Shown: positions 7,767 through 40,508 of the stretch, one piece after another
Numbering within the stretch: the stretch's first letter is position 1
How the letters are laid out: each line of letters begins with the position of its first letter
NCBI RefSeq assembly: GCF_000968135.1
Contig: NZ_FO538765.1
Coordinates: forward strand, 1,689,819 to 1,753,818
Direction of reading: 5' to 3'
DNA: 64,000 bases
DNA from: Magnetospira sp. QH-2
Lineage (GTDB): Bacteria > Pseudomonadota > Alphaproteobacteria > Rhodospirillales > Magnetospiraceae
Translations under genes and position numbers: made by a program
Notes under the pieces: model-generated
Databases searched by the model: none
What the model was told of the DNA's origin: nothing
Seen by the model: the letters and a program-made list of their open reading frames with translations, nothing else

Positions 7767-8410
7767 CCGAGGTGACCATCGCTGACTACGGCGCGAGCAA
7801 TATACTAAGCATAATGAGGGCTTTTCAGCACCTTGACGTGGATGTGTCCTGTGCGGATCAGCCCGCGGACATTCTCGCGGCAAAGCGCCTCGTGGTTCCC
7901 GGCGTCGGCGCCTTTGGTGATTCCATGAGAGCCCTTCATCGTCAGGGGATGGCCGCCGCCATTGTCGAGTTCGCCCAGTCAGGAAGACCGCTCCTCGGCA
8001 TCTGCCTTGGCATGCAGTTGTTGTTCGACTCATCCAGTGAGTTCGAAGAAATGCCGGGATTGGGCCTGATTGCCGGCCGGGTTGACCCGATCCACGCCAC
8101 GGGAATCAATGGTTTGCCCCATAAAATACCCCATGTGGGTTGGAATAGATTGCGCGGCGCGCCATGGAGCGGGTCCATCCTGAGGGACCTTCCTCCGAAG
8201 CCTTATGTTTACTTTGTGCATTCCTTCGCTGCCCGTCCGGCAAAGGCGTCCGAAATATTGGCCACCACCGCCTATGATGGCCGGGAAATCGTTGCTGCGG
8301 TGCAAAGCGACAATCTTATCGGCACCCAGTTTCATCCCGAGAAAAGCGGGGAGCAAGGGCTAACGATTCTCGCTAATTTCATGACGGAATGTGGTGGCTT
8401 GAAAAGATAA
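7763..8410 (+). CDS. hisH: HisH-like glutamine amidotransferase of the same cassette
   Basis: A 215-residue class I glutamine amidotransferase. The triad is visible: C81 in LLGICLGMQLLF, and H191 and E193 in GTQFHPEKSG. It should hydrolyse glutamine and pass ammonia through the HisF-like barrel. The start is the TTG at 7763, inside the stop of the HisF-like gene (4-base overlap). This is the last gene of the three; it is followed by about 140 bases without genes and then the tRNA-Lys terminator. See the two preceding genes for the proposed joint role in acetamidino-sugar synthesis. Confidence 0.9.
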   Translation: MTEVTIADYGASNILSIMRAFQHLDVDVSCADQPADILAAKRLVVPGVGAFGDSMRALHRQGMAAAIVEFAQSGRPLLGICLGMQLLFDSSSEFEEMPGLGLIAGRVDPIHATGINGLPHKIPHVGWNRLRGAPWSGSILRDLPPKPYVYFVHSFAARPAKASEILATTAYDGREIVAAVQSDNLIGTQFHPEKSGEQGLTILANFMTECGGLKR

Positions 8411-19353: not shown

Positions 19354-19878
19354 TTAAAACGGAATTTCGTCGTCCAGGTCGGAGCCTGGTGCGCCGCCGC
19401 TGCCCGCCGAGGGACCCCAGTCCGGACCGCCGCCGCCTTGTTGGCCGCCGCCACCGCCTTGTTGGCCGCCACCGCCATAGCCGCCACCGTTCTGATTGCC
19501 ATAGTCGCCACCGCCACCGCCTTCGGAGCGCCCGTCAAGCATGGTCAGTTCGCCCCGGAAGCGGTCCAGAACCACTTCGGTGGTATATTTCTCGATGCCG
19601 TCCTGACCGGTCCATTTGCGGGTTTGCAGCGCGCCTTCCAGATAGACTTTCGAGCCCTTGCGCAGGAACCGTTCGGCCACATCGGCGAGGCGCTCATTGA
19701 AGATGACGATCCGGTGCCACTCGGTCTTTTCCTTGCGCTCGCCGGTCTGCTTGTCTTTCCATGATTCGCTGGTGGCGATGGACATATTGACAATCTTGCT
19801 GCCGCTCTGTGCGAAGCGAATCTCAGGATCGCGGCCCAGATTGCCGACGAGAATTACCTTATTGACGGAACCGGCCAT
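19354..19878 (-). CDS. ssb: Single-stranded DNA-binding protein
   Basis: A 174-residue protein. The OB-fold (1-~110) starts [20 protein letters not shown] and contains [20 protein letters not shown] Gly/Gln-rich linker follows (~118-160), and the acidic tip DLDDEIPF recruits repair and replication proteins. The ATG at 19878 gives the standard start; a longer frame to 19920 adds a non-homologous peptide. It often sits near uvrA in proteobacteria; uvrA here is 6.4 kb away and divergent. The repetitive linker codons create many false open frames on the other strand. Confidence 0.96.
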
Positions 19879-20028
19879 ACTATCCCCCGCGTTTTGCCCA
19901 TGGCTTGAAAACCGCCGCACTCTACACCGTCAGGCCAGGGAGGCAAACCCCCATGGCGTGATATTGAGGCCAAAATAGGGTATAATGAATCTCTGAATGG
20001 TTCATACCCCGACGTCGGGAGGTCTGAG

Positions 20029-20280
20029 ATGAAAACAGTTCTTTCCGCCATGGCGATCCTGGTCTTGCTGGCCGGTTGCTCGGGCATTCCGCGATTGCAT
20101 TCCGAGGAAATCATTGGGATTGGTGCCGGAACGGCGTTGGGCGCCTATTCGGGGCAGAAGTTGTTCGGCACCTACGGCGCGGCCGGAGGCGCCGTGATGG
20201 GAGCCGCCTTCGGCATGTATTACGGCGATGCCTGGGCCGATCAGGATCCGGACCGCTACGACCCGGCTCTTTGGCCCTGA
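20029..20280 (+). CDS. Small glycine-zipper lipoprotein
   Basis: An 83-residue protein with a lipoprotein signal, MKTVLSAMAILVLLAGCSG, where the lipobox LAGC places the lipidated cysteine at 17. The mature part has a glycine-zipper helix (GIGAGTALGAYSGQKLFGTYG, AAGGAVMGAAFGMYYG), as in small outer-membrane lipoproteins of the Rick_17kDa/SlyB kind. It ends with an acidic tail, DQDPDRYDPALWP. It precedes the flagellar stator genes by about 130 bases, but no functional link is clear. Its likely place is the outer membrane. Confidence 0.8.
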   Translation: MKTVLSAMAILVLLAGCSGIPRLHSEEIIGIGAGTALGAYSGQKLFGTYGAAGGAVMGAAFGMYYGDAWADQDPDRYDPALWP

Positions 20281-20409
20281 TTGAAGACGTTTCCCATCCA
20301 ACCATCGCCGCAATTTCATTCAGCCAGTCATTGCGCGCGCCGGTCAACCCTGATCTACTGACCGTCGGCCATTTTGGCTTGATTGCTGGGCATGCAAGGA
20401 GAGGCGGGT

Positions 20410-21210
20410 TTGGGGCGCATTGATATTGCAACATTGACCGGTATGTTGGTCGGCGTTGCCGTGGTTGGGCTGGCCATCTATACCGGGTCCAATTTTGGCA
20501 TATTCGTGAACGTGCCTGGCCTGCTGATCGTGTTCGGCGGTACTTTTGCCGCGACCTTGGTCAAGTTTCCCTTGGCCGGTGTGTTCGTCGCCTTGCCGGT
20601 GGGCGCCAAGGCCGCTTTCACCAACGAAAAAATCAAGCCACGCGCCTATATCAAAGAATCCCTGCGCCTGGTCAAAAAGGCCCGTCAGGACGGCCTGCAT
20701 ACGGTCGAGGACAACAAGATCGCCAACCCGTTTTTTAAAAAGGGCGTGCAACTGGTGGCCGACGGGCGCGATCTGCCCTATATCCGTAAAATCTTGACCC
20801 AGGACATGGCCCATTCCATCGCTCAGCATGAGCAGGGCGCCAAGATCTTCCTGGCCATCGGCGAGGCGGCCCCGGCTTTCGGTATGTTCGGGACCCTGGT
20901 GGGGTTGGTGCAGATGCTCTCGACCATGGATGATCCCACCAAGATCGGCCCGGCCATGGCCATTGCCCTATTGACCACATTGTATGGCGTTTTGATCGCC
21001 AATCTGGTGGCCTTGCCCATCGCCGACAAATTGGAGAGCAAAAGCCGCGAGGAACGGGATTTGCGCTATTTGGTGATCGAATGCGTGTTCCAGATTCAGC
21101 AACGCACCAATCCAACGGAGATGATCGAGATCCTGGAAACCTTCCTGCCGGAAAAACAACGCCGGATCGGCGCTCCCAACGCCTATACCGACAGCAAACG
21201 CAAAGGGTAG
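20410..21210 (+). CDS. motA: Flagellar motor stator protein MotA/PomA
   Basis: A 266-residue membrane protein with four helices, PomA-like: GRIDIATLTGMLVGVAVVGLA, the GLLIVFGGTFAATLVKFPL helix, and the pair beginning GEAAPAFGMFGTLVGLVQML, which holds the conserved proline-glycine region of helix 3. With MotB it forms the ion-driven stator. The start is uncertain: TTG 20410 sits five bases after AAGGAGAGG; ATG 20392 would put that site inside the gene. It is followed four bases later by the MotB gene. An ExbB/TolQ role is unlikely, since the cytoplasmic loop is long and MotB has an OmpA domain. Confidence 0.88.
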   Translation: MGRIDIATLTGMLVGVAVVGLAIYTGSNFGIFVNVPGLLIVFGGTFAATLVKFPLAGVFVALPVGAKAAFTNEKIKPRAYIKESLRLVKKARQDGLHTVEDNKIANPFFKKGVQLVADGRDLPYIRKILTQDMAHSIAQHEQGAKIFLAIGEAAPAFGMFGTLVGLVQMLSTMDDPTKIGPAMAIALLTTLYGVLIANLVALPIADKLESKSREERDLRYLVIECVFQIQQRTNPTEMIEILETFLPEKQRRIGAPNAYTDSKRKG

Positions 21211-21213
21211 GGC

Positions 21214-21981
21214 ATGGAATACACCCGTGCGGAACCACAGCAAGAGGTCGAGACAAAGCGCAAGGGTGCGCCGCGCTGGATGTGGACTTTTGCCGATTTG
21301 ATGTCCTTGCTGTTCGCGCTGTTCGTGCTGCTGCTGACCTTTGCCGAATTCGATCCCCAGCGGTTTTCCAGCACCGCTGATTCCGTGCGTGCCACCTTCG
21401 ATGCGGATCAGGGGCGGCGCATTGTCCGCTCCATCGCGCCGGGTATCTTGCCGTTCAATGACGGCGATACGATTCAGGAAACCACCCTCGACGACGAGGA
21501 ACTGCGCAAGGCCGAGGAACTGAAGCAGCGCAAGGAAGACACCCTGCACGACCTGCGGCGGAGCCTAGGGGGCGAAATCGACCGGAACGTGGTGCAATTG
21601 GAAGAGACGGAGCAGGGGATTTTGTTGCGTTTCCCCAGTGCCTCGGCCTTTCCCTCCGGCGGCAGTGACTTGAAGGGCGAGATCTTGCCTGCCATTGCCG
21701 AGACCGTTGAAGTGCTCGCCCGCACGCCGGGCCACATCGAGGTCTCCGGCCATACGGATGATGTGCCGATCTCCACCGCCCAGTACCGGTCCAACTGGGA
21801 CCTATCCACAGCCCGCGCGGTGTCGGTGGTGCACGAAATGCTCGAATTGGGGCTGGAACAGGGGCGCCTGTCGGCCACCGGGTTTGCGGAATCCCGACCA
21901 CTCAATGCCAATGACACACCCGGCAACCGGGCCAACAACCGACGGGTGGAAATCGAGCTGATCCTGGGGACGGAGGAATAG
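21214..21981 (+). CDS. motB: Flagellar motor protein MotB (OmpA-domain)
   Basis: A 255-residue protein. A short basic N-terminus precedes one helix, WMWTFADLMSLLFALFVLLL, containing the ion-carrying aspartate D28. A linker follows (~50-130), and then an OmpA-type peptidoglycan-binding domain (IEVSGHTDDVPI, NWDLSTARAVSV, GFAESRPL, NRRVEIELIL). It anchors the stator to the cell wall. The gene begins four bases after the motA stop. No other flagellar genes are in the window. Confidence 0.92.
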   Translation: MEYTRAEPQQEVETKRKGAPRWMWTFADLMSLLFALFVLLLTFAEFDPQRFSSTADSVRATFDADQGRRIVRSIAPGILPFNDGDTIQETTLDDEELRKAEELKQRKEDTLHDLRRSLGGEIDRNVVQLEETEQGILLRFPSASAFPSGGSDLKGEILPAIAETVEVLARTPGHIEVSGHTDDVPISTAQYRSNWDLSTARAVSVVHEMLELGLEQGRLSATGFAESRPLNANDTPGNRANNRRVEIELILGTEE

Positions 21982-22209
21982 GGAGAGCGATCCCTGACGG
22001 CGCCCCTAAACCGCTTTCAAAACGGCCGCGTCAACGTGATTGAGAGATTGGGCCACGACATAATAGGTTCCACCCGGTTGCAGGGGCCGATGGCTCGTCG
22101 CTATTGATCGGAATAGGATGCTCGCCCGACAATCACGAAATTTTTAATTTAATTATAAGACGCATTCTCATATACTGAGGCAGCTTGGGGAAGCGGCAAT
22201 AGAAGGGGT

Positions 22210-22998
22210 ATGCAAATGCTCGAATCATATGTCGACCCTACGAAATTCTTGGAAACCGCATTGCAGGGCCGGGCTGTCTCCCTCGAACGGTATGTGTTCG
22301 CCGACGGCGACGTCATCTTTGAAGAAGGGGAGGAAGGGTCTCAGGCCTATTACTTGTTGTCTGGCGCGGTGGAAATCCGCAAGACCTGCCAACAGGCTTT
22401 CGCCATTCGCCTGAATAGGATCTGCACGGGGCAGGTGTTCGGTGAAATGGCGTTGATCGACGGCCAACCGCGCATGGCGACAGCCAAGGCAATCGGATTG
22501 ACGGAATGCATTGCCTTGCCGCGAGATCTGTTTTTAGGTGAATTGTCCAAAGCCGATCCCTTTACCCGTTTTATGATGAACACGTTGCTCATCCATGTGC
22601 GCACCATGGGGGTCCGAATGGCCGCTCAGGCAGATCTGGCCCGGGTACCGTTTACCGAGCGGTTCGCCAACGCCTATGTGGCCCATGGCCGGGGGGTGAG
22701 CGATATTGACTACTTTTTCTGCGATGGCGACGGCGACAGGGTGGAAATCGCCGCCGACATTATTTACGAGGACCCGGTCTGCCGGACTTGGAATTCCATT
22801 TGCTCCAAGCTCAGCTATGTGGATGACCTGAATGTGCTCGACGGCATGGAACTGCGCAGCCTGCACAAGCTGATCGGTTCGGAAATTCTCAGTGGACGGG
22901 AGTCGGAGTTCATGGATCTGATTTACCAATCCGATGATCTGCGGGACCTTCTGACCGAGCGGGCGCGAGGGATCTGTGCCCAGCGCTGCGGATCCTAA
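22210..22998 (+). CDS. Cyclic nucleotide-binding domain protein
   Basis: A 262-residue protein. Residues ~25-140 form a cNMP-binding domain (FADGDVIFEEGEEGSQAYYLLSG, GQVFGEMALIDGQPRMATAKA), which keeps the phosphate-binding FGEMALxxxxxRxA motif. The C-terminal half (~145-262) has no recognisable DNA-binding helix-turn-helix, so it is not a plain CRP/FNR regulator. Part of it (DYFFCDGDGDRVEIAADI) is unassigned. It stands alone. A cAMP source may be the ferredoxin-cyclase at 13311-14264, but that link is conjecture. Confidence 0.82.
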   Translation: MQMLESYVDPTKFLETALQGRAVSLERYVFADGDVIFEEGEEGSQAYYLLSGAVEIRKTCQQAFAIRLNRICTGQVFGEMALIDGQPRMATAKAIGLTECIALPRDLFLGELSKADPFTRFMMNTLLIHVRTMGVRMAAQADLARVPFTERFANAYVAHGRGVSDIDYFFCDGDGDRVEIAADIIYEDPVCRTWNSICSKLSYVDDLNVLDGMELRSLHKLIGSEILSGRESEFMDLIYQSDDLRDLLTERARGICAQRCGS

Positions 22999-23007
22999 TG
23001 CCTTACG

Positions 23008-23123
23008 CGTTTCATATGATCCCCCGCGGCGTCAAGCTCCCTCACCGATGCGCCACATCGCTTTCAGGACCTTTCCCGGCGGTTTGATTCACCGGAGACC
23101 ATCAAAATGGGTCAAATGAAACG
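23008..23123. repeat. Imperfect inverted repeat in a gene-free gap
   Basis: CGTTTCATATGATCCC near 23008 is the imperfect complement of GGGTCAAATGAAACG near 23109-23123, with ~85 bases between. No gene is visible from 22999 to 23276. Confidence 0.4.
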
Positions 23124-23187
23124 CCAGGGGCTTGTCTTATGAAGAAGGTGTCCAAGGGCTGTAAGCTCAAGGATGCCAGGGTGTGGC

Positions 23188-23280
23188 TAACATGTTGAAA
23201 GCTCAAAGGCCCTCATGCTGAGCTTGTCGAAGCATGTGTCGCCACGCTCGCGAAATCGGACTTTTTCGGCAGCCTGTTAA
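23188..23280. repeat. Partial inverted copy of the 9.4-kb repeat element
   Basis: This is the inverse of 9434-9529: GCTGAGCTTGTCGAAGCATG and the end CTTTTTCGGCAGCCTGTTAA match, with a few changes, GCTTCGACAAGCTCAGCATG and the TAGGCTGCTGAAAAAG end. Its right end reaches the last codons of the PP2C gene and provides that gene's stop codon (TAA, 23277-23279 on the minus strand). Confidence 0.8.
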
Positions 23281-25337
23281 ACCTTGAATCCAATGATCGA
23301 GATATCATCCCGCCGAGGTTCCCGCCCTTGATAGTGTTTCAGGGCTTCGAGAATGGCCTGCTTCTGATCCGGCATGGGGTTTCCCGCAATGGATCGGAGC
23401 AAGGTCTTGAAGCGTTTCTTGCCAAACATGCGGCGGCGCTCACCGCCGATCTGATCGGTCAAACCGTCGGTGCTCAGGTAAAAGGCGCATCCTTCGGTGG
23501 ACCCCACATCGATTGTATCGAAGGTCTGATCCAAAGGGATATTCCGATAACCAATCCCGCATCGGTCTCCTTTGATGGACTCGATGGTGTCCGCGGACGC
23601 CACGAACAGGTCGAACTTGGCCCCCGCGAAGCTGAGGCGCCTCGTGCCGCGATGAATGCGGCAGATCCCCATATCCAGACCATCATCGGATTCGCCGTCC
23701 GTGCGATGCTGACGCAGCGATTTCTGTACGCTTTTGTTGATGATGGACAACATGCGGCCCGGGTCACCATCGGGTTCCTCGCGGCTGGCCCGGTCCATGG
23801 CCCCCGTGGCGATCATGGTGAGGAAGGCACCGGGAATGCCATGGCCGGTGCAATCGGCCAGGGCGATCAAAAAGCCGTCCGGTAACCGGCGGTACCAATA
23901 CAGATCACCGCCGACCCGATCCCGTGGTTCCCAAATGACAAAATGTTCCGACAGGTCTTCGTCCAGAAAGGAGGCCGGTGGTAGAATCGAGCGCTGGATC
24001 CGCGAGGCGTAGTCAATGGAGCCACTGATGATCCCATGGGCCTTGGACAGATTCGCCTCGGCCCGTTGCCGCTCCTTGATATAAGCGCCGACCTCATGGC
24101 TGACCTGATCGAAGGTGCGTGCCATCTCGCCGATTTCGTCCTGGCGGTCCGTATGGGGAATATCCGCCGCCTGATGGGTCTGGCCAAATGTGGCAAAGGC
24201 CTCGCTGATTTGGGCCAAGGGGCGGATGGTCACCGAGGACAGGAAGTAGCCACCCAAGGCCAGCGCAAGGGTGACCGCGAGACCGATCGCCGTCATGTCC
24301 CGGCGCAGATCCACGATGGATTGTTCGATCTCCTTGCGGTCCATTTCGGCAATCAAGGCCCAACGGGTGCCGAGGAAATCCAGCGGCTGATAAGAGGAGA
24401 GGGCCTCGTAGCCACGGTAGTTGATGGTGATTCCGATGCCGGTCTCGCCTTCGAGGGCACGGGCAACGGCCTGGGTATTGACCGCGCTTTTCAAAATCGT
24501 TGACGGGTCCGAGAAGCGGGAATCACTGCGCATCAGCTGATCGTTACCGACCAGATAGGTTTCGCCAGTTTCCCCCATGCCGTCGGTTACCTGAAGGATC
24601 TTGTTGATCCGCGCGGTGGGCATCTGAATGGCCATAACGCCGACGGGATCGCCGCTGTCCAGGACCGGCATGGCCAGGAAGGCGGCGGGGCGGCCTTCAA
24701 GGGGCCCATAGGGAGAGAAATCGATGAAGATCGCCCGGTCTTGATCGTCTGCCGGGTCGTCGACGGCGTCTAGGACCCGGCGGAAGGCCCGGCCGATTCC
24801 CTCGTCTTTCCAGGCGCCATCCATGACGTTCGTGGCAAATTCCCGGCCTTTGTCGGCGGAATAAATGAGATCGCCGTCCAGGGTCATCAGGGAGATATCG
24901 AAGTATCCCAACTGCTCGCGGACCAACTGGAACCAGTCGTTCAGCCTGAAGTGGGTGCGGGCATAGTTCTGCAGTCCGTCAATTTTCAAGGTCTTGAGCG
25001 TTTTTAGGTCACCGGTGGGGGTGACCGCATTGTACAGGCGTTGCAGGACCTCGGTTTTTCGGTCCGGGGGAAGATCGATTCCCTCCCAGGCCGCCTCCGT
25101 TTCGAACAAGGTGTTTTTCACCGCCGAACTGGACGCCAGAACCGCCAGGGTCTGCTCCGTTTGCTTGAGGTAGGAGACCAGGGCCGTGTGGCGGATGGTG
25201 CGCAGGGTCTGGAGTTGTTCCTCCGCCTCGTCGAGCAGGGATCCTGACAGATTGACATAGCTGATCACCCCAAACGTGATGGCGGTGATCACGGCGCTGA
25301 AGGCGACAAACAGCGGAAATTTCAGTCGGAAGGTCAT
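23277..25337 (-). CDS. Cache-HAMP-PP2C (SpoIIE) sensor phosphatase
   Basis: A 686-residue protein with membrane helices at ~7-29 and ~347-369 flanking a large periplasmic sensor region of the Cache type (~30-340). HAMP follows (~370-420), then a short coiled coil, and a PP2C/SpoIIE phosphatase domain (~450-686) with metal-site motifs GGDLYW, IALADCTGHGIPGAFLTM, STDGLTDQ and RRDDISIIGF. It should dephosphorylate an anti-sigma-factor antagonist or similar protein on receipt of an outside signal. It lies 17 bases after a periplasmic binding protein gene, likely its ligand receptor. Its stop codon comes from a repeat element. A homologous phosphatase domain is at 42654-43589. Confidence 0.9.
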   Translation of the reverse strand: MTFRLKFPLFVAFSAVITAITFGVISYVNLSGSLLDEAEEQLQTLRTIRHTALVSYLKQTEQTLAVLASSSAVKNTLFETEAAWEGIDLPPDRKTEVLQRLYNAVTPTGDLKTLKTLKIDGLQNYARTHFRLNDWFQLVREQLGYFDISLMTLDGDLIYSADKGREFATNVMDGAWKDEGIGRAFRRVLDAVDDPADDQDRAIFIDFSPYGPLEGRPAAFLAMPVLDSGDPVGVMAIQMPTARINKILQVTDGMGETGETYLVGNDQLMRSDSRFSDPSTILKSAVNTQAVARALEGETGIGITINYRGYEALSSYQPLDFLGTRWALIAEMDRKEIEQSIVDLRRDMTAIGLAVTLALALGGYFLSSVTIRPLAQISEAFATFGQTHQAADIPHTDRQDEIGEMARTFDQVSHEVGAYIKERQRAEANLSKAHGIISGSIDYASRIQRSILPPASFLDEDLSEHFVIWEPRDRVGGDLYWYRRLPDGFLIALADCTGHGIPGAFLTMIATGAMDRASREEPDGDPGRMLSIINKSVQKSLRQHRTDGESDDGLDMGICRIHRGTRRLSFAGAKFDLFVASADTIESIKGDRCGIGYRNIPLDQTFDTIDVGSTEGCAFYLSTDGLTDQIGGERRRMFGKKRFKTLLRSIAGNPMPDQKQAILEALKHYQGREPRRDDISIIGFKV

Positions 25338-25354
25338 CGGTCCGTTCCGCGGTT

Positions 25355-26095
25355 TCAGCGCCTTTTCGCAAGAGCTGCGTTCAAACGGCGGATGTGATCG
25401 TCATCCGTGGCTTTGGAGCAGATCAGATAGCGTTTGCCGCCCGGCGGCATGTCTTCCAGTTGCAAGAGGGCGATGTCGTTGCCCGCCACGCCCAGCATAT
25501 GGATCAGTTCCTCGGCTTCTTCCGCCGAGACAATCATATAGTCGAAGCGCTGCCCCAACAGCATGCGGATCATGCCCACGTTGTCCTGGGACGAGGTCAC
25601 GGCGGCCAGATCGTATTTTTTCAACAGCGGATCCACGTACGGACCATAGGAAAAGCCCAGCTTGCGGCCCATGGTCAGGGCTTTGTTGGACAGCAGCGCC
25701 TCCACCGACTTCATTTTCAGGGCGGTGACGTTGTCCGCCCTCACCAGCGCCACTTGAGGGGCATCCTGATAGACGGCCTCGGTATATTTGCCGAAGGCCT
25801 CCCGCTCGGGGTTCTTGAACCAGCCGGCGGCACAGACCGGCTCGCGATTCTTCTGGATGGTCTTGAGATGCCGGTTGGCGGCCATGATTTTCCATTTGAA
25901 CGGTAGGGCGGCTTTTTCGAAGGCCTCGGCGATGGGGGTCGCGACCTTGCCGGTAAAGCCGCCGTCGAGTTCCTGCACGTAATAGGGCGCGCGCTCGAAA
26001 ATGAGTACCTTGAGCGGCTTGTCCGCCGCCCATACGGAAGCCGAAAGACTGGCCGCAACCAAGACCAAGAGAACAAGAGCAAAGGGCCGTTTCAT
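25355..26095 (-). CDS. Periplasmic solute-binding protein (SBP_bac_3 type)
   Basis: A 246-residue protein with a signal peptide, MKRPFALVLLVLVAASLSAS, cleaved near VWA-AD. The mature domain (KPLKVLIFERAPYYVQELDG, FKWKIMAANRHLKTIQKN, KLGFSYGPYVDPLL) resembles amino-acid type binding proteins. No ABC permease or ATPase is nearby; instead the gene is 17 bases upstream of the Cache-HAMP-PP2C phosphatase. That pairing suggests a receptor that delivers a small molecule to the sensor. The ligand is unknown. Confidence 0.85.
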   Translation of the reverse strand: MKRPFALVLLVLVAASLSASVWAADKPLKVLIFERAPYYVQELDGGFTGKVATPIAEAFEKAALPFKWKIMAANRHLKTIQKNREPVCAAGWFKNPEREAFGKYTEAVYQDAPQVALVRADNVTALKMKSVEALLSNKALTMGRKLGFSYGPYVDPLLKKYDLAAVTSSQDNVGMIRMLLGQRFDYMIVSAEEAEELIHMLGVAGNDIALLQLEDMPPGGKRYLICSKATDDDHIRRLNAALAKRR

Positions 26096-26262
26096 AGGTC
26101 AATCCTGACGGGTTGCCGATCAAAGGGGAAAATATCGGCATAGCTTAGCCGACCCGCTTTCGCCGGGATACGTCTTTTTGCTTGTTGTCCTGGCGGGAAT
26201 GGAGACAAAGGGCGTAGAGAACGGACTCGATTTCCGCCGCCATCCGGGCCATATAAGCGGCC

Positions 26263-29112
<2,850 letters not shown>

Positions 29113-30877: not shown

Positions 30878-31243
30878 ATGGCTGATGACATTACCGAATC
30901 ACCTCTGCCGGAAATAGATCCGGCCACCGCCCTGGATTGGCAAATGCGGGGCGATGCGGTGATTCTGGACGTCCGCGAGGCGTCGGAATACGATTTCGAA
31001 AACATCCCGGGATCGGTGCTGCTGCCCTTATCGTTTCTCGACCCCAAACGGGCCCCGGCCATCTTCCACAACAAGGTCGTGGTGATCTGTGCCATGGGCA
31101 AAAGGGGCGCGGCGGCTCAGAAACAGCTCACCGAATACGGCATGCTGGAAATCTATAACCTCACCGGCGGCATCGCCGCGTGGAAAAAGGCCGGATTGGA
31201 AGTCCAGGGCGGCAAGTACGAGGCCATGGACTATTCCATTTAA
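30878..31243 (+). CDS. Rhodanese-domain protein
   Basis: A 121-residue single-domain rhodanese. CH2A-like ILDVREASEYDFENIPGSV is at ~29-47, and the active-site loop CAMGKRGAA has the sulfur-carrying cysteine C71. It should accept or transfer sulfane sulfur in the cytoplasm; the physiological partner is unknown. The ATG at 30878 has no Shine-Dalgarno, but TATACT lies at 30866-30871, so a leaderless mRNA is possible. The last bases overlap the convergent SGNH gene by four bases. Confidence 0.87.
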   Translation: MADDITESPLPEIDPATALDWQMRGDAVILDVREASEYDFENIPGSVLLPLSFLDPKRAPAIFHNKVVVICAMGKRGAAAQKQLTEYGMLEIYNLTGGIAAWKKAGLEVQGGKYEAMDYSI

Positions 31244-32376
31244 GGCGAGCCTTCCAGGCACCCGCCGCCGCGTTGCGCAATCAAATCTCGGACCTGCGCC
31301 GATTCGGCCATCTGGCGCGCCACCAGTTCGCCGAACAGGCGATTTCCCTCCTTTGTCATATGGATGCTGTCCGTATAGTAGCGATGATCGCTCCGTATGA
31401 GGTCCAAGGTAGCGATCCTGGGAACGGCCTGTGCCTTCGAAGTTTGGTCGATTGCCTGATTGTAGACATAGGGCCCTTCGACAATATCCGAACGAGGGAC
31501 ACCCGGCAGGTAAAGCAGCCGGGAGTGAATGATCGCCATCTGTGCGGAGACAGACTGTTCCCGCCGTGCCCGGGGGGCCTGTTCCACGAAAACCGGCAGG
31601 GCGTCAACGGAGCGGGCCGTCTCGACAAATTGCTTCAGGTCGGTCTCCATATCGCCAAGAAGAGACCGGAAATCCATTTGAAATGCGCCCCTCTCGCGGG
31701 TGGCCTGACGTTGCAGGTAGAGGGCCGTGGCATTCTTTTCCAGCTTTAGCCAAAGCAGGGAGGCGCGGGCAAAGGCACTGGGTTGATACCCCTTGAAGGG
31801 GAAGCCCGCCTTCCGGGCCTGTTCCCGGGCCCGAAACACCAGATCAGAAGGCAGAAGGACCGCCAAGTCGGGGGAAAATCGCGCCGCGTCCTCTAGCAAG
31901 CGCCTGGTGAAGAACGAAATACGGTCACCGGATATGCCGGCATTGAAAAAGTCAAACCGGCATCGGGGAAAGCTCTTTTGGAGCAGATCCACCACCACAT
32001 GCGGCCAGGTGTCTCCGTCGTTCCTTATATGCCGGTTCAAGGTGGTCGAACTGCCAAAAAAACCAAGGCGAATTACCCCTTCGGGTTTCGGTTTCCGGAG
32101 GGCGAGGCCGCGAAATCCATCTTCTGAAAAGACCAAGCTTCCCCATCGGCTGCCTGGGCGAGGGCGTTGACGTCCATCTATCGATTCCCAGATTTCCGCT
32201 ACGCGACGGATTTCAATCGCCGGAATTGCGCCATAGGTCTTCCATTGCGCCCCCCGAAGCAAGACTTCACCGGCCAACAGCAAGAGCAATAGAAACGCGG
32301 GAATGGCGAGCGCGACGAGGATCTCCTTGGTCCTCGGAGAGCATTCTTCCCATTTGAATAGCAGCGCCGAAATCAT
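31240..32376 (-). CDS. Membrane-anchored SGNH/GDSL hydrolase-like protein
   Basis: A 378-residue protein with one N-terminal helix (IPAFLLLLLLAGEVLL, ~25-40), so the rest is predicted outside the membrane. SGNH blocks: LGFFGSSTTL with nucleophile Ser110, NAGISGD with G147, and YTDSIHMTKEGN with D336 and H339. The Asn of block III is not obvious (LLPSDLV). It is the last gene of the operon with the ligase-carrier, MBOAT and one-helix genes, as DltD is in dlt operons. I infer that it carries out or assists the final acyl transfer, or removes the acyl group. The stop overlaps the rhodanese gene by four bases. Confidence 0.75.
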   Translation of the reverse strand: MISALLFKWEECSPRTKEILVALAIPAFLLLLLLAGEVLLRGAQWKTYGAIPAIEIRRVAEIWESIDGRQRPRPGSRWGSLVFSEDGFRGLALRKPKPEGVIRLGFFGSSTTLNRHIRNDGDTWPHVVVDLLQKSFPRCRFDFFNAGISGDRISFFTRRLLEDAARFSPDLAVLLPSDLVFRAREQARKAGFPFKGYQPSAFARASLLWLKLEKNATALYLQRQATRERGAFQMDFRSLLGDMETDLKQFVETARSVDALPVFVEQAPRARREQSVSAQMAIIHSRLLYLPGVPRSDIVEGPYVYNQAIDQTSKAQAVPRIATLDLIRSDHRYYTDSIHMTKEGNRLFGELVARQMAESAQVRDLIAQRGGGCLEGSP

Positions 32377-32382
32377 CAGACC

Positions 32383-32571
32383 CTACATGGCCAAATAGTG
32401 AAAGTCGGCGCGTGGCTCGAACATTCCGAAGAGCGCCAGTCCCAGCATGGCCAACAACCATATAGCTGAAAGGGCGGAAATCTTGGCGGCGGAAAGGTCG
32501 GGAAACCGATGGCTTAGGAACCCGAAAACGCCTTGCTTCACATCAGGAAGCCGATGGTTGCTGTCTTCCAT
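32383..32571 (-). CDS. Small one-helix membrane protein between the MBOAT and SGNH genes
   Basis: A 62-residue protein. The soluble N-terminus (MEDSNHRLPDVKQGVFGFLS) is followed by a helix, ISALSAIWLLAMLGLALFGM, and a short tail. It overlaps the MBOAT gene by 34 bases and sits seven bases before the SGNH gene, so it is translated within the operon. Its position and topology recall DltX, the small membrane peptide of dlt operons, but the sequence shows no DltX motif that I can confirm. Confidence 0.65.
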   Translation of the reverse strand: MEDSNHRLPDVKQGVFGFLSHRFPDLSAAKISALSAIWLLAMLGLALFGMFEPRADFHYLAM

Positions 32572-33692
32572 ATGTCAAAAACCTCCGACAGGTTGGCCTT
32601 ACGCACGATGGCAAAGCCGAACCAGACATAGTGAACGGTAAAGAGGATGGAAAGGCCGGTCAACGCGGCCCTTAGCCAGGGGGAGTGGATCGCTGGCAAA
32701 GAGGGTTTCAGGCTTTGGAACCGTTGCCAGATGACCAGGCCGATGCCGTGGTACAGGCCCCAACAGATATAGCGCAGGGACAATTCATGCCACAGGCCGA
32801 GAACAAGCAAGGTGGCAATGGCGCCCAAGGCCGGACTGCGGGTCACGGAAACCACCGAGGTATATATGTAATCCCGGCACCACCCGGTCAGGGAGATGTG
32901 CCAGCACTGCCAATACTCAGAGAGGTTCCGGCGGAAGAACGGCCAATTGAAGTTCTCCATGACCCGAAAACCGAGTAACCGGGAAAAGCCGATGGCAATG
33001 TCGGCGAACCCGGAAAACTGGAAATACAGGTTCAATCCACCCAGGACAATCCACAAATAAGCCGCCAGGGCGGTCTGTTCGGGCGGTAGCTGATCCACAT
33101 AGTCGCCAAGCAATCCGTTGATCAGGTAGTTGCCCAGAAAGCCAATTTTCACATAGCCGTAGAGGATGCGCTCGATCCCCTCGGGCAGCATGTCCCGCTC
33201 CATGCGGGTCCGATACAGGTCTCGCTGGTAGGCGTCGAAGCGGTGAATGGGACCGACAAGAATGGTCGGCAGAAAGAACAGATAGCCGACAATTTCCATG
33301 GGGGTGGTCTCTTGAAATCGGCCCCGATATCGTTCGAACAACAAATGCAGACAGCGGAAGGTGTAATAGGACAGGCCCAGGGGAATGATGGCGTCGGAGA
33401 TGATGGACTCGATAGACTGTCCGGCGGCATTCAGTTTGAAATAAACCAAAACCGAGATGAAGAGCAGGCCTGTTGCCGCAATGGTGGGGCCGTTGGGATC
33501 ACGCCGCCCCGCCACATAGGTTGTCACCAAGGTGAAAAATGTCAGAATACCCGCCGACAAGGGGGATGTGCGGAGCAAAAATGCCAGGGTTAAAACAATC
33601 AACACCCGCGCACGCCAGCGGGCTGGGGCGAGCCAAAAGAGACTGAAGGTCCCAATCATCCACAGCAGATATTCCAAGGAAAGGTAATGCAT
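32538..33692 (-). CDS. MBOAT family O-acyltransferase (DltB/AlgI-like)
   Basis: A 384-residue polytopic membrane protein with about ten helices. Family motifs are the LSYYTFRCLHLLFERYRG loop (~107-124), FLPTILVGPIHRFDAY, EYWQCWHISLTGWCRDYIYT (H265) and LGLWHELSLRYICWGLYHGI with H302 and H315. It should move an acyl group across or out of the membrane onto an extracytoplasmic acceptor, as DltB and AlgI do. The gene begins six bases after the ligase-carrier gene and overlaps the one-helix gene. The acyl donor is predicted to be the carrier domain encoded upstream. Confidence 0.87.
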   Translation of the reverse strand: MHYLSLEYLLWMIGTFSLFWLAPARWRARVLIVLTLAFLLRTSPLSAGILTFFTLVTTYVAGRRDPNGPTIAATGLLFISVLVYFKLNAAGQSIESIISDAIIPLGLSYYTFRCLHLLFERYRGRFQETTPMEIVGYLFFLPTILVGPIHRFDAYQRDLYRTRMERDMLPEGIERILYGYVKIGFLGNYLINGLLGDYVDQLPPEQTALAAYLWIVLGGLNLYFQFSGFADIAIGFSRLLGFRVMENFNWPFFRRNLSEYWQCWHISLTGWCRDYIYTSVVSVTRSPALGAIATLLVLGLWHELSLRYICWGLYHGIGLVIWQRFQSLKPSLPAIHSPWLRAALTGLSILFTVHYVWFGFAIVRKANLSEVFDIWKTATIGFLM

Positions 33693-33698
33693 GGGGGC

Positions 33699-36083
33699 TC
33701 AGTCCTCCCCATCCGAAGGCCGGGATAGGCGGTCTTCAAGAAGCCTTTGGAGATCCCCCAGGCATTCAATAATCATGATTTCCCGGTGACTTAACGAAAG
33801 GCCGAATTGGATTTCCGTCTCCGTCAAGAGCGTGACGAAAGCCAGAGAATCCCATCCCGTCGTGTTGCCTGGTGTCGAGCGGCGCGACAGCTGATCCGGC
33901 TCGACATTGAAGACGGATGCGGCAATGCCCCGCAATCGTTCCCATACCGAAGGCCCCTCGCCGACGGTCGAGGGGTCCGAGGTCGGCAGGGGAGACAAAC
34001 GCCATTGACCGCCGAGCTTGGTCAGCAAAAAGGGGGGCAATCCAAGAGCTTCAAAGAACCGGGCGGTGATTTCAGGCGGTGGTGACGGACTCACGATCGC
34101 CAGTCGTTGGAAGCCCTCGTGGGGGCGACCATCGCTCAAATGGCGGTCCGCCTCGGCCCACCGGACGGCCCGGTTTGAATCAAGAAGGATATGGCGGGCC
34201 CGGGTCCGGTAGAGCGCGCCCAAATCGGCGGCGACCGAGCAACGACCGCGGTCGAGAAAGAGCACTCGGGACTGGTGTTTCAAAGTATGCAGGATGAGCG
34301 AAGCGGTGAGGGGGGCCGTTTCGGAATCATCAACGATGGCCAGGGTCCGTTCCGGCTCCAGGGGAAACAGCTCACGCCATTGGACTGCCTCCCGGGCCAG
34401 AGCGTTGTCACCGGTGGTCCGTTCCCGCATCAACAAGTCGAGCGCGGGCGAACCGGTCGGCGCCTGCTTTATCAATTTTGCCGCCAAGCGTCGCCGGGAG
34501 AGATTCATTCCGCCTTCCACCGCGGGCCATCTGGGACGAATTTCCATCAGGTCGGTGATGAGGGTTTCGACGGTGTACAGTGCGGTTTCTTGCATAGCCC
34601 GCGCGGTTTCGGCCAGGGCAGCGCGGCGAATTTTGGCGGTGCCGGTGGTGCGCGGCAATTCATCGACGGCCACCAGCTGGCGGGGAATCTTGAAGTTGGG
34701 TAGCCGGTCGCGCAGGTGATCGCGCACCACTTCGAGATTGAGATCAAGATCAGCGCCGTTGGTTTCAATGAACAATGCAGGCACAAACCCCTCGATTTCC
34801 GCCGGATCCGCCATGGCGGCCACGGCATAGGCCCGGGGCTGCATCAGGTCGGCGAGAGCTTCTTCCACCTCTTGCGGGGCGACCTTGAGGCCGCCCACAT
34901 TGATCATGTCGTCCGTGCGGCCCACGTAGGTCAGGTAACCCTCCGGGTCCAAGGTGCCAATGTCCCCGGTGATCAGCCAGTCGCCGTCCCTTTTGGTGGT
35001 CCAGGCCTCCGGCTGGTCAAAATAGCCGCTGGCCATGTTGGGCCCCGAGACCTGGATCTGACCTTCTTCGCCACCGTCGATCGGTTGACCGGCGGAATCG
35101 GTCAGGCGCAAGGCAATACCGGGGGAAGGGCGTCCGACCGTATCGATTTTGTCCCGCTCGGCGTTCAATTCGAGAATGGTGCAGCGAATGGCCTCGGTCA
35201 GGCCGTAGCTGATGAAGCAGCGGGTCGTTGGGAAGGTCTCAAGCAGCGTTTCGCGATGGTGGTGGGGCAGGTGGCCGGATCCCAATTCGATCCATTTCAG
35301 GTTAGCGGCCGATTGTCGCAGGGCGGGCAGATAGCCCTCGATCAGGATGGTCATGGCGGAAACAGCCGCTGACAGCATGGTGCATTGCTTGTCGACAAGA
35401 TCCTCGGCCACGGCAGCCGACGAAAACAGACCCGACCGTAAGACTGCCGTGCCGCCAAGGTGCAGGGCGCAACGGACACGGCCCAAGCCGAACCCATGTT
35501 CCAAAGGGGCGCTGACCAGATCGCGTACTGTGTCGTCCAGTCCCATGCGTTGGTTCATATAGGCAGCCGTACGGCACAGGGAACGATGGGAAAGCTGGGC
35601 ACCCCGGCGGACACCCTGAGTGGTCCCGGAGGTCAGGATCAACAAGCCGATGGATTCCGGGTCCAGGTCGGGCAGGGTACCTGGTGCCTGGCTATCGAAT
35701 GCGCTGACGTCGAAGCGATGCTTGGCGGATGCAAATGCCTCGGCGCGAAAGCTATTGCGATCCAGCAGGATGGCATGGGGACGAAAATAGCTTTCGGCGG
35801 CGCCCAGGTCTTCCTCGGCAGCGGAAACCGGTAAGACTGCGGCGCCTGTTCCCATGCCCGCCAAGACAGCGATCATCAGATCGATCTTGTTTTGTGCGAC
35901 CACCATGACCCGCGCTCCAGGGCCGATGTTCCTGGCTGAAAGAAAGGCAACGCCTTGTCGCACGCGTCGATCAAGCGCGGCATAGGAAAGGACATCGTCG
36001 CCGTCAACGAGAGCGGGACGGTCAGGCACAGACGATGCATGGATCGCGATATGCCGGGGTAGAGGTGGATAGATCGAATGCAT
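33699..36083 (-). CDS. Adenylate-forming ligase fused to an acyl carrier domain
   Basis: A 794-residue protein. The ANL ligase (1-~500) shows A3 LILTSGTTQGVRRG (148-160, altered from the usual TGxPKG), A5 YGLTE (293-297), the ITGD/VGRTDD A7-A8 region, and the A10 lysine K484 in PRTTGTAKIRR. Residues ~500-715 are an unassigned insert. The C-terminus (~716-794) is a phosphopantetheine carrier with TTGWDSLAFV, Ser746 being the attachment site. It activates a carboxylic or amino acid and loads it on its own carrier. It is first in the operon with MBOAT, one-helix and SGNH genes. The A-domain specificity cannot be read here. Confidence 0.85.
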   Translation of the reverse strand: MHSIYPPLPRHIAIHASSVPDRPALVDGDDVLSYAALDRRVRQGVAFLSARNIGPGARVMVVAQNKIDLMIAVLAGMGTGAAVLPVSAAEEDLGAAESYFRPHAILLDRNSFRAEAFASAKHRFDVSAFDSQAPGTLPDLDPESIGLLILTSGTTQGVRRGAQLSHRSLCRTAAYMNQRMGLDDTVRDLVSAPLEHGFGLGRVRCALHLGGTAVLRSGLFSSAAVAEDLVDKQCTMLSAAVSAMTILIEGYLPALRQSAANLKWIELGSGHLPHHHRETLLETFPTTRCFISYGLTEAIRCTILELNAERDKIDTVGRPSPGIALRLTDSAGQPIDGGEEGQIQVSGPNMASGYFDQPEAWTTKRDGDWLITGDIGTLDPEGYLTYVGRTDDMINVGGLKVAPQEVEEALADLMQPRAYAVAAMADPAEIEGFVPALFIETNGADLDLNLEVVRDHLRDRLPNFKIPRQLVAVDELPRTTGTAKIRRAALAETARAMQETALYTVETLITDLMEIRPRWPAVEGGMNLSRRRLAAKLIKQAPTGSPALDLLMRERTTGDNALAREAVQWRELFPLEPERTLAIVDDSETAPLTASLILHTLKHQSRVLFLDRGRCSVAADLGALYRTRARHILLDSNRAVRWAEADRHLSDGRPHEGFQRLAIVSPSPPPEITARFFEALGLPPFLLTKLGGQWRLSPLPTSDPSTVGEGPSVWERLRGIAASVFNVEPDQLSRRSTPGNTTGWDSLAFVTLLTETEIQFGLSLSHREIMIIECLGDLQRLLEDRLSRPSDGED

Positions 36084-36169: not shown

Positions 36170-39100
36170 TCAGGGGGAGCCATACCCGCCGCCGCCCGGG
36201 GTTTCGATGACGAAAAGGTCACCGGCCGCCATGGCCACTTGGTCGTTTCCTTTCAAAGTATCGACCGCGCCATCGGCCTTTATGAGCCGATTGCGTCCCC
36301 GAGCCCCTGCCTGGCCACCCTTCAGGCCGTATGGATCGGTTTCCCGATGGGACGACAGGATGGTCGCGGTCATGGGCTCGAGTACCCGCATTTGACGGAT
36401 GACACCATCGCCGCCGGGGTATTGTCCCGTCCCGCCGGAGCCGCGGCGGATGGAAAACGCCTCGATCCGGATGGGGTAACGCCATTCCAACACTTCCGGA
36501 TCGGTCATGCGGGTGTTGGTCATGTGGCTATGCACGGCACTGGTGCCCGGATGATCGGGACCGGCGCCAGTGCCGCCGCAGATGGTTTCGTAGTTTTGAT
36601 GGGTTTCGTTGCCATAGACAAAGTTGTTCATGGTGCCCTGGGATGATGCCAAGATTCCGAGGGCTCCGAACAAAGCATCGGTGATGGCTTGAGAGACCTC
36701 GGTATTCCCGGCGATCACCGCCGCCGGGTAGCGGGGATGGATCAGGCTGCCCTCCGGTACGATCAGATCGAGCGGCTTCAGACAGCCCTCGTTGAGGGGA
36801 ATGCGGTCATCCACCAGACAGCGGAACACATAGAGCACCGCCGCCTTGCAGACCGCCAAGGGGGCATTGTAGTTGCCCGGGTCCTGGGGCGAGGTGCCGG
36901 TGAAGTCGATGGTCGCTTGACGGTTCATTTTATCAACCGAGATGCGCACGCGGATCTCCGCACCGCTATCCAATGGATAGGTGAACGAGCCGTCCGTCAG
37001 CACATCAAGCACCCGGCGCACGGATTCCTCTGCGTTGTCCTGCACATGGCCCATATAGGCGCGCACCACATCCAGACCAAAATGGGTGATTATTTCGCGC
37101 AGCTCGCGCAGGCCGGTCTCGTTGGCCGCCACCTGGGCGGTCAAATCCTGAATATTCTGATCCGGATTGCGGCAGGGATAGCGGCCCGACGCCAGCAGGG
37201 CGCGGGTCTCGGACTCGCGGAAACGGCCTTGCTCGACCAACAGGAAATTGTCGATCAGCACGCCTTCCTCGTCGATATGTCGGCTGTCCGGCGGCGAAGA
37301 ACCGGGGGTGCGCCCTCCGATGTCCGCATGATGGCCTCGCGATCCCACATAGAACAGCACCTGGTCGCCTGATTCGTCGAACAGTGGCGAGATGACGGTC
37401 ACGTCGGGCAAGTGAGTGCCGCCATTGTAGGGCGCGTTGAGGGCGAAGTGGTCACCGGGTTTCATGGTCGCATGGTTGTCACGGATGACCGTGCGTACCG
37501 TCTCGCCCATGGAGCCCAGATGCACCGGCACATGCGGCGCATTGGCTACCAGGTTGCCTTCGCCATCGAACAGGGCGCAGGAGAAATCCAGCCGTTCCTT
37601 GATATTCACCGACGACGCCGTATTGGCCAGGGTGCCCCCCATCTGCTCGGCGATGGACATGAACAAGTTGTTGAACACCTCCAGCATCACCGGATCGGCG
37701 CGGGTACCGATTGCCTCGGTGACCGGACGGGCTTCATGGCGTTCCAGGATCAGGTGTTCGAAGCCGTTGACCTGGGCCTGCCAACCGTTTTCCAGTACTA
37801 CCGTGCCGGTGGCTTCGACAATAATCGCCGGACCGGTGAAAGTCTGCCCCGGGCACAGGTCGTCGCGATGATATAGCGGCACGGTTTGCCAACGGTCTTG
37901 TCCATGCAGGCGCACTTGGTCGCGGGGCGCGGGCGGGGCGGCGGTGCCTATGGGATGGTTTACTTCGTCGGCGGTTTCCGTGGTTGCCATGGCTTCCACC
38001 GTTACCGCCTCGATGACCATATCCCGATCGGCATTGATGAAGCCGAAGCGTTGCCGGTGAGCCTGCTCGAAATGCGCGCGCATGGCAGTGGTTGACCCGG
38101 CCGGGACGGGCAGGGCGGTATCGGTTCCGGCATAGCGCAGCAGAGCTGTATGCGCCACGGTGATGAGGTCGGCGGTAACGCCTTGTTTCGACAGCTCAGC
38201 GCGCGCCTCTTGTTCGGGCTTCGTGCAAGCATCGGCCACCGATGTTCCGGCGTCGGGTCCGAACACTCTTTCCACTTGCGCTTCCCGCATCGCCCGCACA
38301 TCCGCCAGTCCCATGCCATAGGCCGATAGAACGCCCGCGAAAGGATGCAGAAACACCCGGGTCATGCCCAAGGCATCGGCCACCCGGCAGGCATGCTGCC
38401 CTCCGGCGCCGCCGAAGCATTGCAGGGTATATCGGGTGACGTCATAGCCCCGTTGTACCGATATTTTCTTGATGGCATTGGCCATGTTTTCAACGGCAAT
38501 ACGCAAGAATCCCTCGGCCACTTGTTCGGCGGTCGGGCGGTCGGGCAAATCGGCGGCCCGGGCTTCGAATTTGTGTCGTACGATTTCGGCGTCCAGCGGT
38601 TGATCGGCCTGGGGGCCGAAGACCTTGGGGAAGTGGTCGGGCTGAATGCGGCCCAGCATGACATTGCAGTCGGTCACCGCCAAAGGACCGCCGCGCCGGT
38701 AGCAGGCCGGACCGGGATCGGCCCCCGCGGAGTCTGGCCCGACCCGGAAGCGGCTGCCGTCGAAGCGCAGGATGGAGCCGCCTCCGGCGGCCACCGTGTG
38801 GATATGCATCATCGGCGCGCGCATGCGCACCCCGGCTACCTGGGTCTCGAAGCTGCGCTCGAACTGGCCATCATAGTGGGTGACATCGGTGGACGTGCCG
38901 CCCATGTCAAAGCCGATCAGCTTGGTGAACCCGGCCTGCGCCGCCGTCCGTACCATGCCCACCACGCCTCCGGCGGGTCCGGAAAGGATGGCGTCCTTGC
39001 CCTGAAACAGGCGGGCGTCGGTCAGACCGCCACTGGACTGCATGAACAGCAGGCGAGCCTCGCCCAAGGGCGCCGCCACCTGATCCACGTAGCGACGCAG

Positions 39101-39751
39101 GATCGGCGACAGATAGGCATCCACCACCGTGGTATCGCCGCGCGGCACCAGTTTCATCAACGGGCTGACCCGGTGGCTGATCGAGATTTGGGTAAAGCCC
39201 ACTTGCCGGGCGATTTCAGCCGCGCGTTGTTCGTGAGCGGGGTAGCCATAGCCATGCATGAAAAGAATGGCTAAGGCGCGGATGCCCTCGTCATGGGCGG
39301 CTTGCAGGGCTGCACGAAGGCTGGGTTCATCCAAGGGGCACAAGATGGTGCCGTCGGCGGCGATCCGTTCGTCGGCTTCTATGACACGTTCATGCAATAG
39401 ATCAGGCAGCACCACATGGCGGGCAAACAGGTCCGGACGGGCCTGGGTGCCAATGCGCAAGGCATCGCCGAATCCCCGCGTAGTGACCAGCACGGTGCGA
39501 TCTCCACGGCGTTCCAGCAGCGCATTGGTGGCCACCGTGGTGCCCATCTTCACTGCGTCAATGGCCTCGGTTGGAAGGGCCTTGTCCGAATCCAGTCCAA
39601 GCAGGTTGCGGATTCCCTGCAAGGCGGCATCTTGGTAATGCTCCGGATTTTCCGACAGCAGCTTTTGAGAGAGCAGCGCTCCGTCGGGGCGTCGGGCGAC
39701 GATATCGGTGAAAGTGCCGCCCCGATCAATCCAGAATTGCCATTTATCCAT
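36170..39751 (-). CDS. Fused HyuA-HyuB hydantoinase/oxoprolinase
   Basis: A 1193-residue single chain. Residues ~1-700 are HyuA-like ([19 protein letters not shown] at the start; [16 protein letters not shown] ATPase motif), and ~700-1193 are HyuB-like ([22 protein letters not shown]; a C-terminal GGGGYG). The family opens 5-oxoproline or hydantoin-type rings with ATP; the fused form resembles eukaryotic 5-oxoprolinase. The ATG at 39751 overlaps the GDPD stop; a longer frame to 39835 lies inside that gene. The exact substrate cannot be set from sequence alone, and 5-oxoproline is the most likely. Confidence 0.9.
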
Positions 39752-40508
39752 GCAAAGCCAACATGCTGTCCGGTTGGTCCGTAAAGATCGCGTCCACGCC
39801 CATGGCAAACAGAGCCTTGGCCCGCACTGGATCATTTACCGTATAGGGATGGACGAGATAACCCGCTGCGTGAATATCGGCAACCAGCCGTTTGTGCAGA
39901 AAGGCCTGATGGCAATGCAGACTGATGCAATGATGCCGTTTCAAGACCGTCCGCCAACGCAGGGGCACGGCGGTGGTGATCAGTCCCAGAGGAATCTCCG
40001 GCAAGGAGGCCCGGAACAGGTCCAAAGAGTCCGGGCTCGCGGAGGAAACCAGCAGCCATTCCCCGGAAACAACGTGGCGTTCGAGGGTTTTGACGACGGC
40101 CTGCACCGTCGGCTCTTCCCATCCCGTGGTCGGTTTGAGCTCCAAGTTGAGGGTCATATCCCGCTGGCGAATCAGCTTCAGCGCTTCGTCCAGGGTCGGG
40201 ATGCGTTGTCCGGCAAAGCCCGGGTCGAACCAGGAGCCCGCATCCAGGGATTTCAGCTCTTCCAGCGTCTTGAGAACCACGGGGCCGCTGCCGTCGGTGC
40301 AGCGGTCCAGGGTTTCATCATGCAGGATCACCGGGATGCCATCGGCGCTGACGGTCACATCCAATTCGACGGCCTGGGCGCCCAGATCGGCGGCGAGCGT
40401 GATGGCCGCCAAAGTGTTCTCCGGCGCGCGCGCGCTGGCACCGCGATGGGCGATAATGGGGGCAATAATGGGGGCAATAATGGGAGGGGAAGAACCGTCG
40501 GGCCCCAT
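39744..40508 (-). CDS. Glycerophosphodiester phosphodiesterase
   Basis: A 254-residue GDPD TIM barrel with the catalytic [15 protein letters not shown] (H21-R22), [12 protein letters not shown], and [14 protein letters not shown] motifs. It should release glycerol-3-phosphate from glycerophosphodiesters; no signal peptide is seen, so it is cytoplasmic. The stop overlaps the fused oxoprolinase start by eight bases, so the two are co-transcribed, an odd pairing of phospholipid and cyclic-amide metabolism. The N-terminus holds an APII repeat coded by a 12-base direct repeat (40453-40480), so the true start could lie inside it. Confidence 0.88.

Follow-up and report, generated by a model that had tools for sequence, protein, structure and literature searches.

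A Dlt-like operon of Magnetospira sp. QH-2 with a fused ligase-carrier, a free microprotein and a ligase that is not of the amino-acid type

An operon of four genes in Magnetospira sp. QH-2 probably encodes a relay of Dlt type that passes an acyl group through the membrane, the acid being a carboxylic acid other than an alpha-amino acid. The genes lie on the minus strand of the window, by which we mean the whole 64,000-nucleotide stretch of DNA that was analyzed, and encode in order a ligase-carrier fusion of 794 amino acids (33699..36083), a DltB-like MBOAT of 384 amino acids (32538..33692), a DltX-like microprotein of 62 amino acids if read from its ATG (32383..32571), and an SGNH protein of 378 amino acids (31240..32376), with spacings in the ORF list of 6, -34 and 6 bases. 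An earlier sequence-only reading had described four adjacent minus-strand genes here, and all of them are present as ORFs at these coordinates with the same spacings. Pfam families matched by the encoded proteins are AMP-binding and AMP-binding_C in the ligase, MBOAT, and, for the SGNH protein, GDSL families only (Lipase_GDSL_2). On the same strand, 86 bases upstream of the ligase, a single 1221-aa ORF (36170-39835) fuses hydantoinase A and B of the oxoprolinase type, and past the SGNH end of the operon lies a convergent uvrA followed by ssb (19354-29112); the same uvrA/ssb order and orientation past the operon is seen in loci L070 and L073, reflecting either a common ancestral site or coincidence.

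The gene set recurs in distant taxa. Close full-length homologues of the ligase are rare, being found in 2 of 60 relatives, the window genome aside, and a close orthologue of the MBOAT is present in 4 of 317 genomes for the order and 2 of 385 for the class, with 3 of 398 for the phylum at a looser level, the window genome being counted in all three. A single-sequence scan of genome contigs with the ligase found no relative, whereas an alignment search of GTDB genomes with the MBOAT yielded 16 further usable loci, L079 being excluded since its MBOAT frame is broken at a contig end. The carriers are Rhodospirillales-type metagenome-assembled genomes (MAGs), Roseitalea, Oceaniradius, a Phyllobacteriaceae MAG, Donghicola and Pelagibius, together with Nitrosomonas and Paraglaciecola MAGs, a Nitrospina MAG and a Waddliaceae MAG, so that the set spans Pseudomonadota, Nitrospinota and Chlamydiota MAGs or genomes at 39-64% MBOAT identity; as several of these are MAGs, individual taxon labels could be in error. 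When profiles made from the initial four copies were run across all ORFs of the related loci, ligase plus carrier, MBOAT and SGNH protein turned up together, with the ligase-carrier adjoining the MBOAT in 16 loci, and the set of four including the microprotein is complete wherever the locus sequence extends far enough. In the case of L064 the contig begins at the MBOAT, and the ligase-carrier of the same genome sits where a separate contig ends (L003). The co-occurrence in other genomes on which the sequence-only reading had staked its operon is thus borne out, as is its expectation that the carrier serine and the MBOAT histidines would be fixed rather than freely varying, no variation at these positions being seen in the aligned copies.

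The ligase-carrier, delimited by the ORF list, Pfam, an alignment of 16 sequences and an AlphaFold2 model (mean pLDDT 80, pTM 0.58), begins with an ANL adenylation domain of approximately residues 1-495 (34599..36083), which contains the core motif TSGTT at residues 151-155 and an A10-type Lys484 that is invariant in the alignment. Its carrier domain, residues 712-787 (33723..33950), was placed by PP-binding and by alignment: the last 93 residues of the protein scanned alone match PP-binding at 23.6 bits against a cut-off of 20.8, and S746 (codon 33846-33848) sits in a GWDS motif, with D745 and S746 invariant in 16 of 16 aligned ligase-carriers. The fused phosphopantetheine carrier proposed earlier, with its Ser746, therefore stands, and the operon has the phosphopantetheine serine of a Dlt carrier, though on a domain fused to the ligase rather than on a free protein. 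The adenylation domain is another matter. In all 17 ligase-carriers aligned, Gly replaces the A4 Asp of amino-acid A-domains, a position that we take, guided by the alignment, to be that of the amino-group-binding Asp235 of PheA; the A4 region reads HGFGLG in the window group and FTDGILHG in the remaining members, whereas sequences of amino-acid type in the same alignment read FDVS with the Asp present, among them the internal control L060 (TFDVS). The Asp with which a DltA-type ligase binds the amino group of D-Ala is thus missing. The nearest folds in a structure search with the ligase model are MenE, MatB, feruloyl-CoA synthetase and EntE/aryl-acid A-domains, and both the best profile matches and the best structure matches are acyl/aryl ligases. 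Because the ligase lacks the amino-acid Asp and resembles ligases of acyl and aryl acids, D-Ala is an unlikely substrate and a non-amino carboxylic acid the predicted one; aminoacyl and acyl groups, which the sequence-only reading weighted equally, no longer deserve equal weight.

Between these two domains of the window protein is a third region that had previously been missed, a truncated ANL-like stretch of about 200 residues (residues 500-705; 33969..34586). In hhalign it aligns with the A4-A5 part of the ANL domains of other members (E 1e-7, Prob 94%), and an unrelated SGNH control gave Prob 0.1%. Since this region is ANL-like yet without ANL core motifs, it is probably the relic of a decayed second adenylation domain, one that perhaps serves as a scaffold. 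It is restricted to the window group (the window, L065, L003, L066 and L067), whose operons have neither a second ANL gene nor a sulfotransferase gene and carry this extra region instead. In most of the loci, by contrast, a second ANL gene lies directly upstream (L068, L069, L070, L072, L073, L074, L077, L080 and probably L148) or downstream (L076), and in four loci a sulfotransferase gene stands between the ligase-carrier and the MBOAT (L071:2987-3910; L075:7088-7990; L078:7056-7979; L145 about 7137-8010). Descent of the decayed region from a duplicated upstream ANL gene was considered and set aside, as it is closer to the ANL domains of ligase-carriers (E 1e-7) than to the upstream ANLs (E 1e-4), and a search of the window genome for a second ligase elsewhere that might replace the upstream ANL of relatives gave weak generic matches only. 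The upstream ANL proteins of L077:2425-5184 and L080:2639-5302 are extended at the N-terminus by roughly 400 residues, the extension in L077 being without a Pfam family.

The MBOAT, assigned by Pfam, alignments and a tree, has as its closest named family TIGR04091 (DltB), which it matches at 178 bits, under the curated cut-off of 375 bits for a DltB-type MBOAT, and DltB is also the sole solved structure, as well as the sole named family, that it matches. Residues His265 (codon 32898-32900) and His302 (codon 32787-32789) are invariant in 17 of 17 MBOATs, and His302 aligns with His336 of DltB. In a tree of 97 sequences, made by a quick search with midpoint root and SH-aLRT support only, and which does not show the order of deep branches, 15 members of the operon's MBOAT clade fall on one branch (SH-aLRT 99), and the 33 MBOATs that carry a fused shuttle motif all fall on a single separate branch, their fused tail being FIYFQF. 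The window MBOAT ends in SEVFDIWKTATIGFLM, so it does not bear the C-terminal FxYxxF that is fused to the MBOAT in AlgI/PatA systems, and no member of its clade has a fused motif whereas nearly all AlgI-type sequences do. The comparison with AlgI that had been drawn from the sequence is thus not supported for this MBOAT.

The shuttle motif is found instead on the microprotein, which was defined from the ORF list and an alignment of 17 sequences. All 17 microproteins have one hydrophobic helix and a C-terminus of the form [F/I]-x-Tyr-x-x-[M/Y/L/I], which in the window is FHYLAM (Tyr codon 32395-32397). This ending is close to the acyl-tyrosine shuttle FxYxxF of DltX: FxY is kept in the window and the Tyr in all 17, while the final residue is M, Y, L or I rather than F. 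As background, 3185 C-termini of ORFs of at least 40 amino acids were taken from 17 related loci, and [FI]xYxx followed by any residue at the extreme C-terminus occurred in 17 of them, 16 of which had a hydrophobic stretch; there is one such ORF for each locus with an intact downstream region, every one beside the MBOAT. Because the set recurs in distant taxa and the motif ending is nearly absent elsewhere among these 3185 C-termini, the operon is more than a chance association. Three loci found afterwards and checked by eye, L145, L148 and L149, have microproteins ending in FIYAGF, FIYWDN and FRYAGF, the gene lying ahead of the ligase in L145 and ahead of the MBOAT in L149. A Pfam scan of the 62-residue microprotein gave no family match, and two Bacillota control microproteins were likewise missed. 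The start of the gene may be either the ATG (62 aa), which is preceded by a GGAGG resembling a ribosome site, or a GTG at 32541 (52 aa), near which the microproteins of relatives begin, about 10 residues later. The 34-base overlap with the MBOAT holds for the ATG start, and may instead be a 4-base overlap, GTGA, with the MBOAT stop codon.

The SGNH protein, identified by Pfam, alignments and AlphaFold2 (pLDDT 89.6), has an N-terminal helix at residues 14-48, and its model matches SGNH esterase/acyltransferase folds with Z up to 20.5. Its Ser110 (codon 32047-32049), Asp336 and His339 are invariant across 17 aligned copies. In L077, L078 and L080 the candidate is diverged, lies ahead of the MBOAT and lacks a Pfam match, yet it aligns at all three of these residues. 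The DltD family model in Pfam gave no match to the SGNH protein, and DltD is not among the structural matches listed for the model, which leaves room for kinship with DltD.

In Dlt itself, DltB takes D-Ala from DltC and places it on the Tyr of DltX in FxYxxF, from where it goes to a Ser of DltD, and PatA uses the same acyl-Tyr relay with the motif fused to the MBOAT (PMC12148441). By analogy with these systems we infer the chemical steps of the present relay, along with its acid and its acceptor; the sequences themselves show which genes belong together and in what order, which residues are invariant, the shuttle motif and the kind of ligase. The ligase would adenylate the acid with ATP and load it onto the phosphopantetheine arm that Ser746 bears in the carrier domain at its own C-terminus; the MBOAT would take the acyl group from the carrier, with His302 helping to place it on the Tyr of FHYLAM near the periplasmic C-terminus of the microprotein; the microprotein tail would then bring it to the membrane-anchored SGNH protein, whose Ser110 would receive it, and this protein would hand it on to a hydroxyl group on a glycan in the periplasm or at the surface, exopolysaccharide being the likeliest. 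The Dlt-like reading offered at the outset is strongly supported in its MBOAT, whose closest family is DltB, and in its DltX-like Tyr motif.

The operon shares with Dlt a ligase and carrier, a DltB-like MBOAT, a separate one-helix microprotein with a C-terminal FxYxx and an SGNH protein in a single operon, and it differs in that ligase and carrier are fused with an ANL-like relic between them, the ligase lacks the amino-acid Asp, the SGNH protein is of GDSL type, the shuttle motif ends in M, Y, L or I, and the host is a Gram-negative without teichoic acid. The Bordetella dra genes are a Gram-negative set of Dlt type reported as a D-alanine system. A true Dlt/Dra system here, one that D-alanylates LPS or some other part of the outer membrane in the way reported for the dlt genes of Dickeya and Pectobacterium, would account for the DltB-like MBOAT and the separate microprotein, and dltXABCD is on record in a few Gram-negatives (PMC5541007). 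We nevertheless regard it as quite unlikely given the Gly in place of the A4 Asp, the acyl/aryl matches of the ligase and the DltD model that does not match the SGNH protein; the Dickeya and Pectobacterium gene set is likewise Dlt-type and Gram-negative, but is reported as a D-alanine system (PMC5541007), and the present ligase is not of the amino-acid type. The operon would thus work like Dlt without, by the test of its ligase, being a member of it. Other Pseudomonadota loci that are Dlt-like (L055, L056 and L149) have separate microproteins ending in FKYQGF, FRYQGF and FRYAGF; L149, a more distant locus with ligase and carrier unfused, retains the amino-acid-type FD motif in its ligase, and L055 and L056 do not.

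O-acetylation of the AlgI/PatA type, with acetyl-CoA as donor and the ligase-carrier belonging to an unrelated pathway, finds some encouragement in that comparable pairs of MBOAT and SGNH protein occur commonly within the order, and PatA/PatB and AlgI-type systems do share such a pair and a Tyr shuttle motif with the present operon. It is very improbable, however, since the MBOATs with a fused motif form a single separate branch, the ligase-carrier adjoins the MBOAT in 16 loci, and those systems have a fused motif and an acetyl-CoA donor whereas here the microprotein is free and the carrier is encoded alongside. A different possibility leaves the relay as proposed and replaces the glycan by a lipid, a lipoprotein or a small secreted molecule, for which one can cite the sulfotransferase gene within the operon in L071, L075, L078 and L145 and the fact that the operon has no adjoining glycan genes in most loci, that of the window among them. 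This we consider unlikely, as four loci do adjoin polysaccharide genes and polymers are the targets of the known MBOAT-SGNH relays (PMC12148441).

Those four loci also shape our view of the acceptor in the relay to a glycan. L066 has as neighbors an amidotransferase, a ligase and a decarboxylase of XrtA/PEP-CTERM type, each under its cut-off, L075 has hydr1_PEP above cut-off, L074 has a Wzz-type kinase and a flippase, and L076 has a GT2. The ligase_PEP_1 family (TIGR03098) and the XrtA/PEP-CTERM genes of exopolysaccharide clusters are thus akin to the operon in their related ANL ligases and as its neighbors in L066 and L075, but the window ligase reaches 171 bits where the TIGR03098 cut-off is 592 and lies outside the exopolysaccharide cluster of its own genome. 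That cluster, of XrtA/exosortase type (L164:2028-13816; G000:C1:1022928-1034716), holds exosortase and Wzz above cut-off and, by eye, an amidotransferase, an 87-aa carrier and two hydrolases, and is unlinked to the operon. Exosortase above cut-off occurs in about 4 carrier genomes and in 4 of 21 non-carriers examined, so that an acceptor tied to exosortase as a rule was rejected. Because some loci adjoin exopolysaccharide genes, yet exosortase is not clearly enriched, exopolysaccharide is put forward as no more than the leading guess for the acceptor.

On balance we lean, with modest confidence, toward a distinct class of carrier-fed relays of MBOAT, microprotein and SGNH protein, spread horizontally over several Gram-negative phyla and forming esters of exopolysaccharide with a carboxylic acid other than an amino acid; this would be a third kind beside Dlt (amino acid, teichoic acid) and PatAB/AlgI (acetyl-CoA, fused motif). 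A literature search, mostly outside subscription journals, found no report of a system that is fed by a carrier, handles a non-amino acid and has its microprotein free. According to a 2025 paper, Dlt alone among MBOAT-SGNH pathways has a carrier protein or a DltX-like microprotein (PMC12148441), and contrary to that statement these Gram-negative loci appear to have both, together with a ligase that is not of the amino-acid type. If this is true, the acyl-Tyr relay would extend beyond acetate and D-Ala to further acids, and the loci point to a small number of residues and genomes with which such a relay may be tested.
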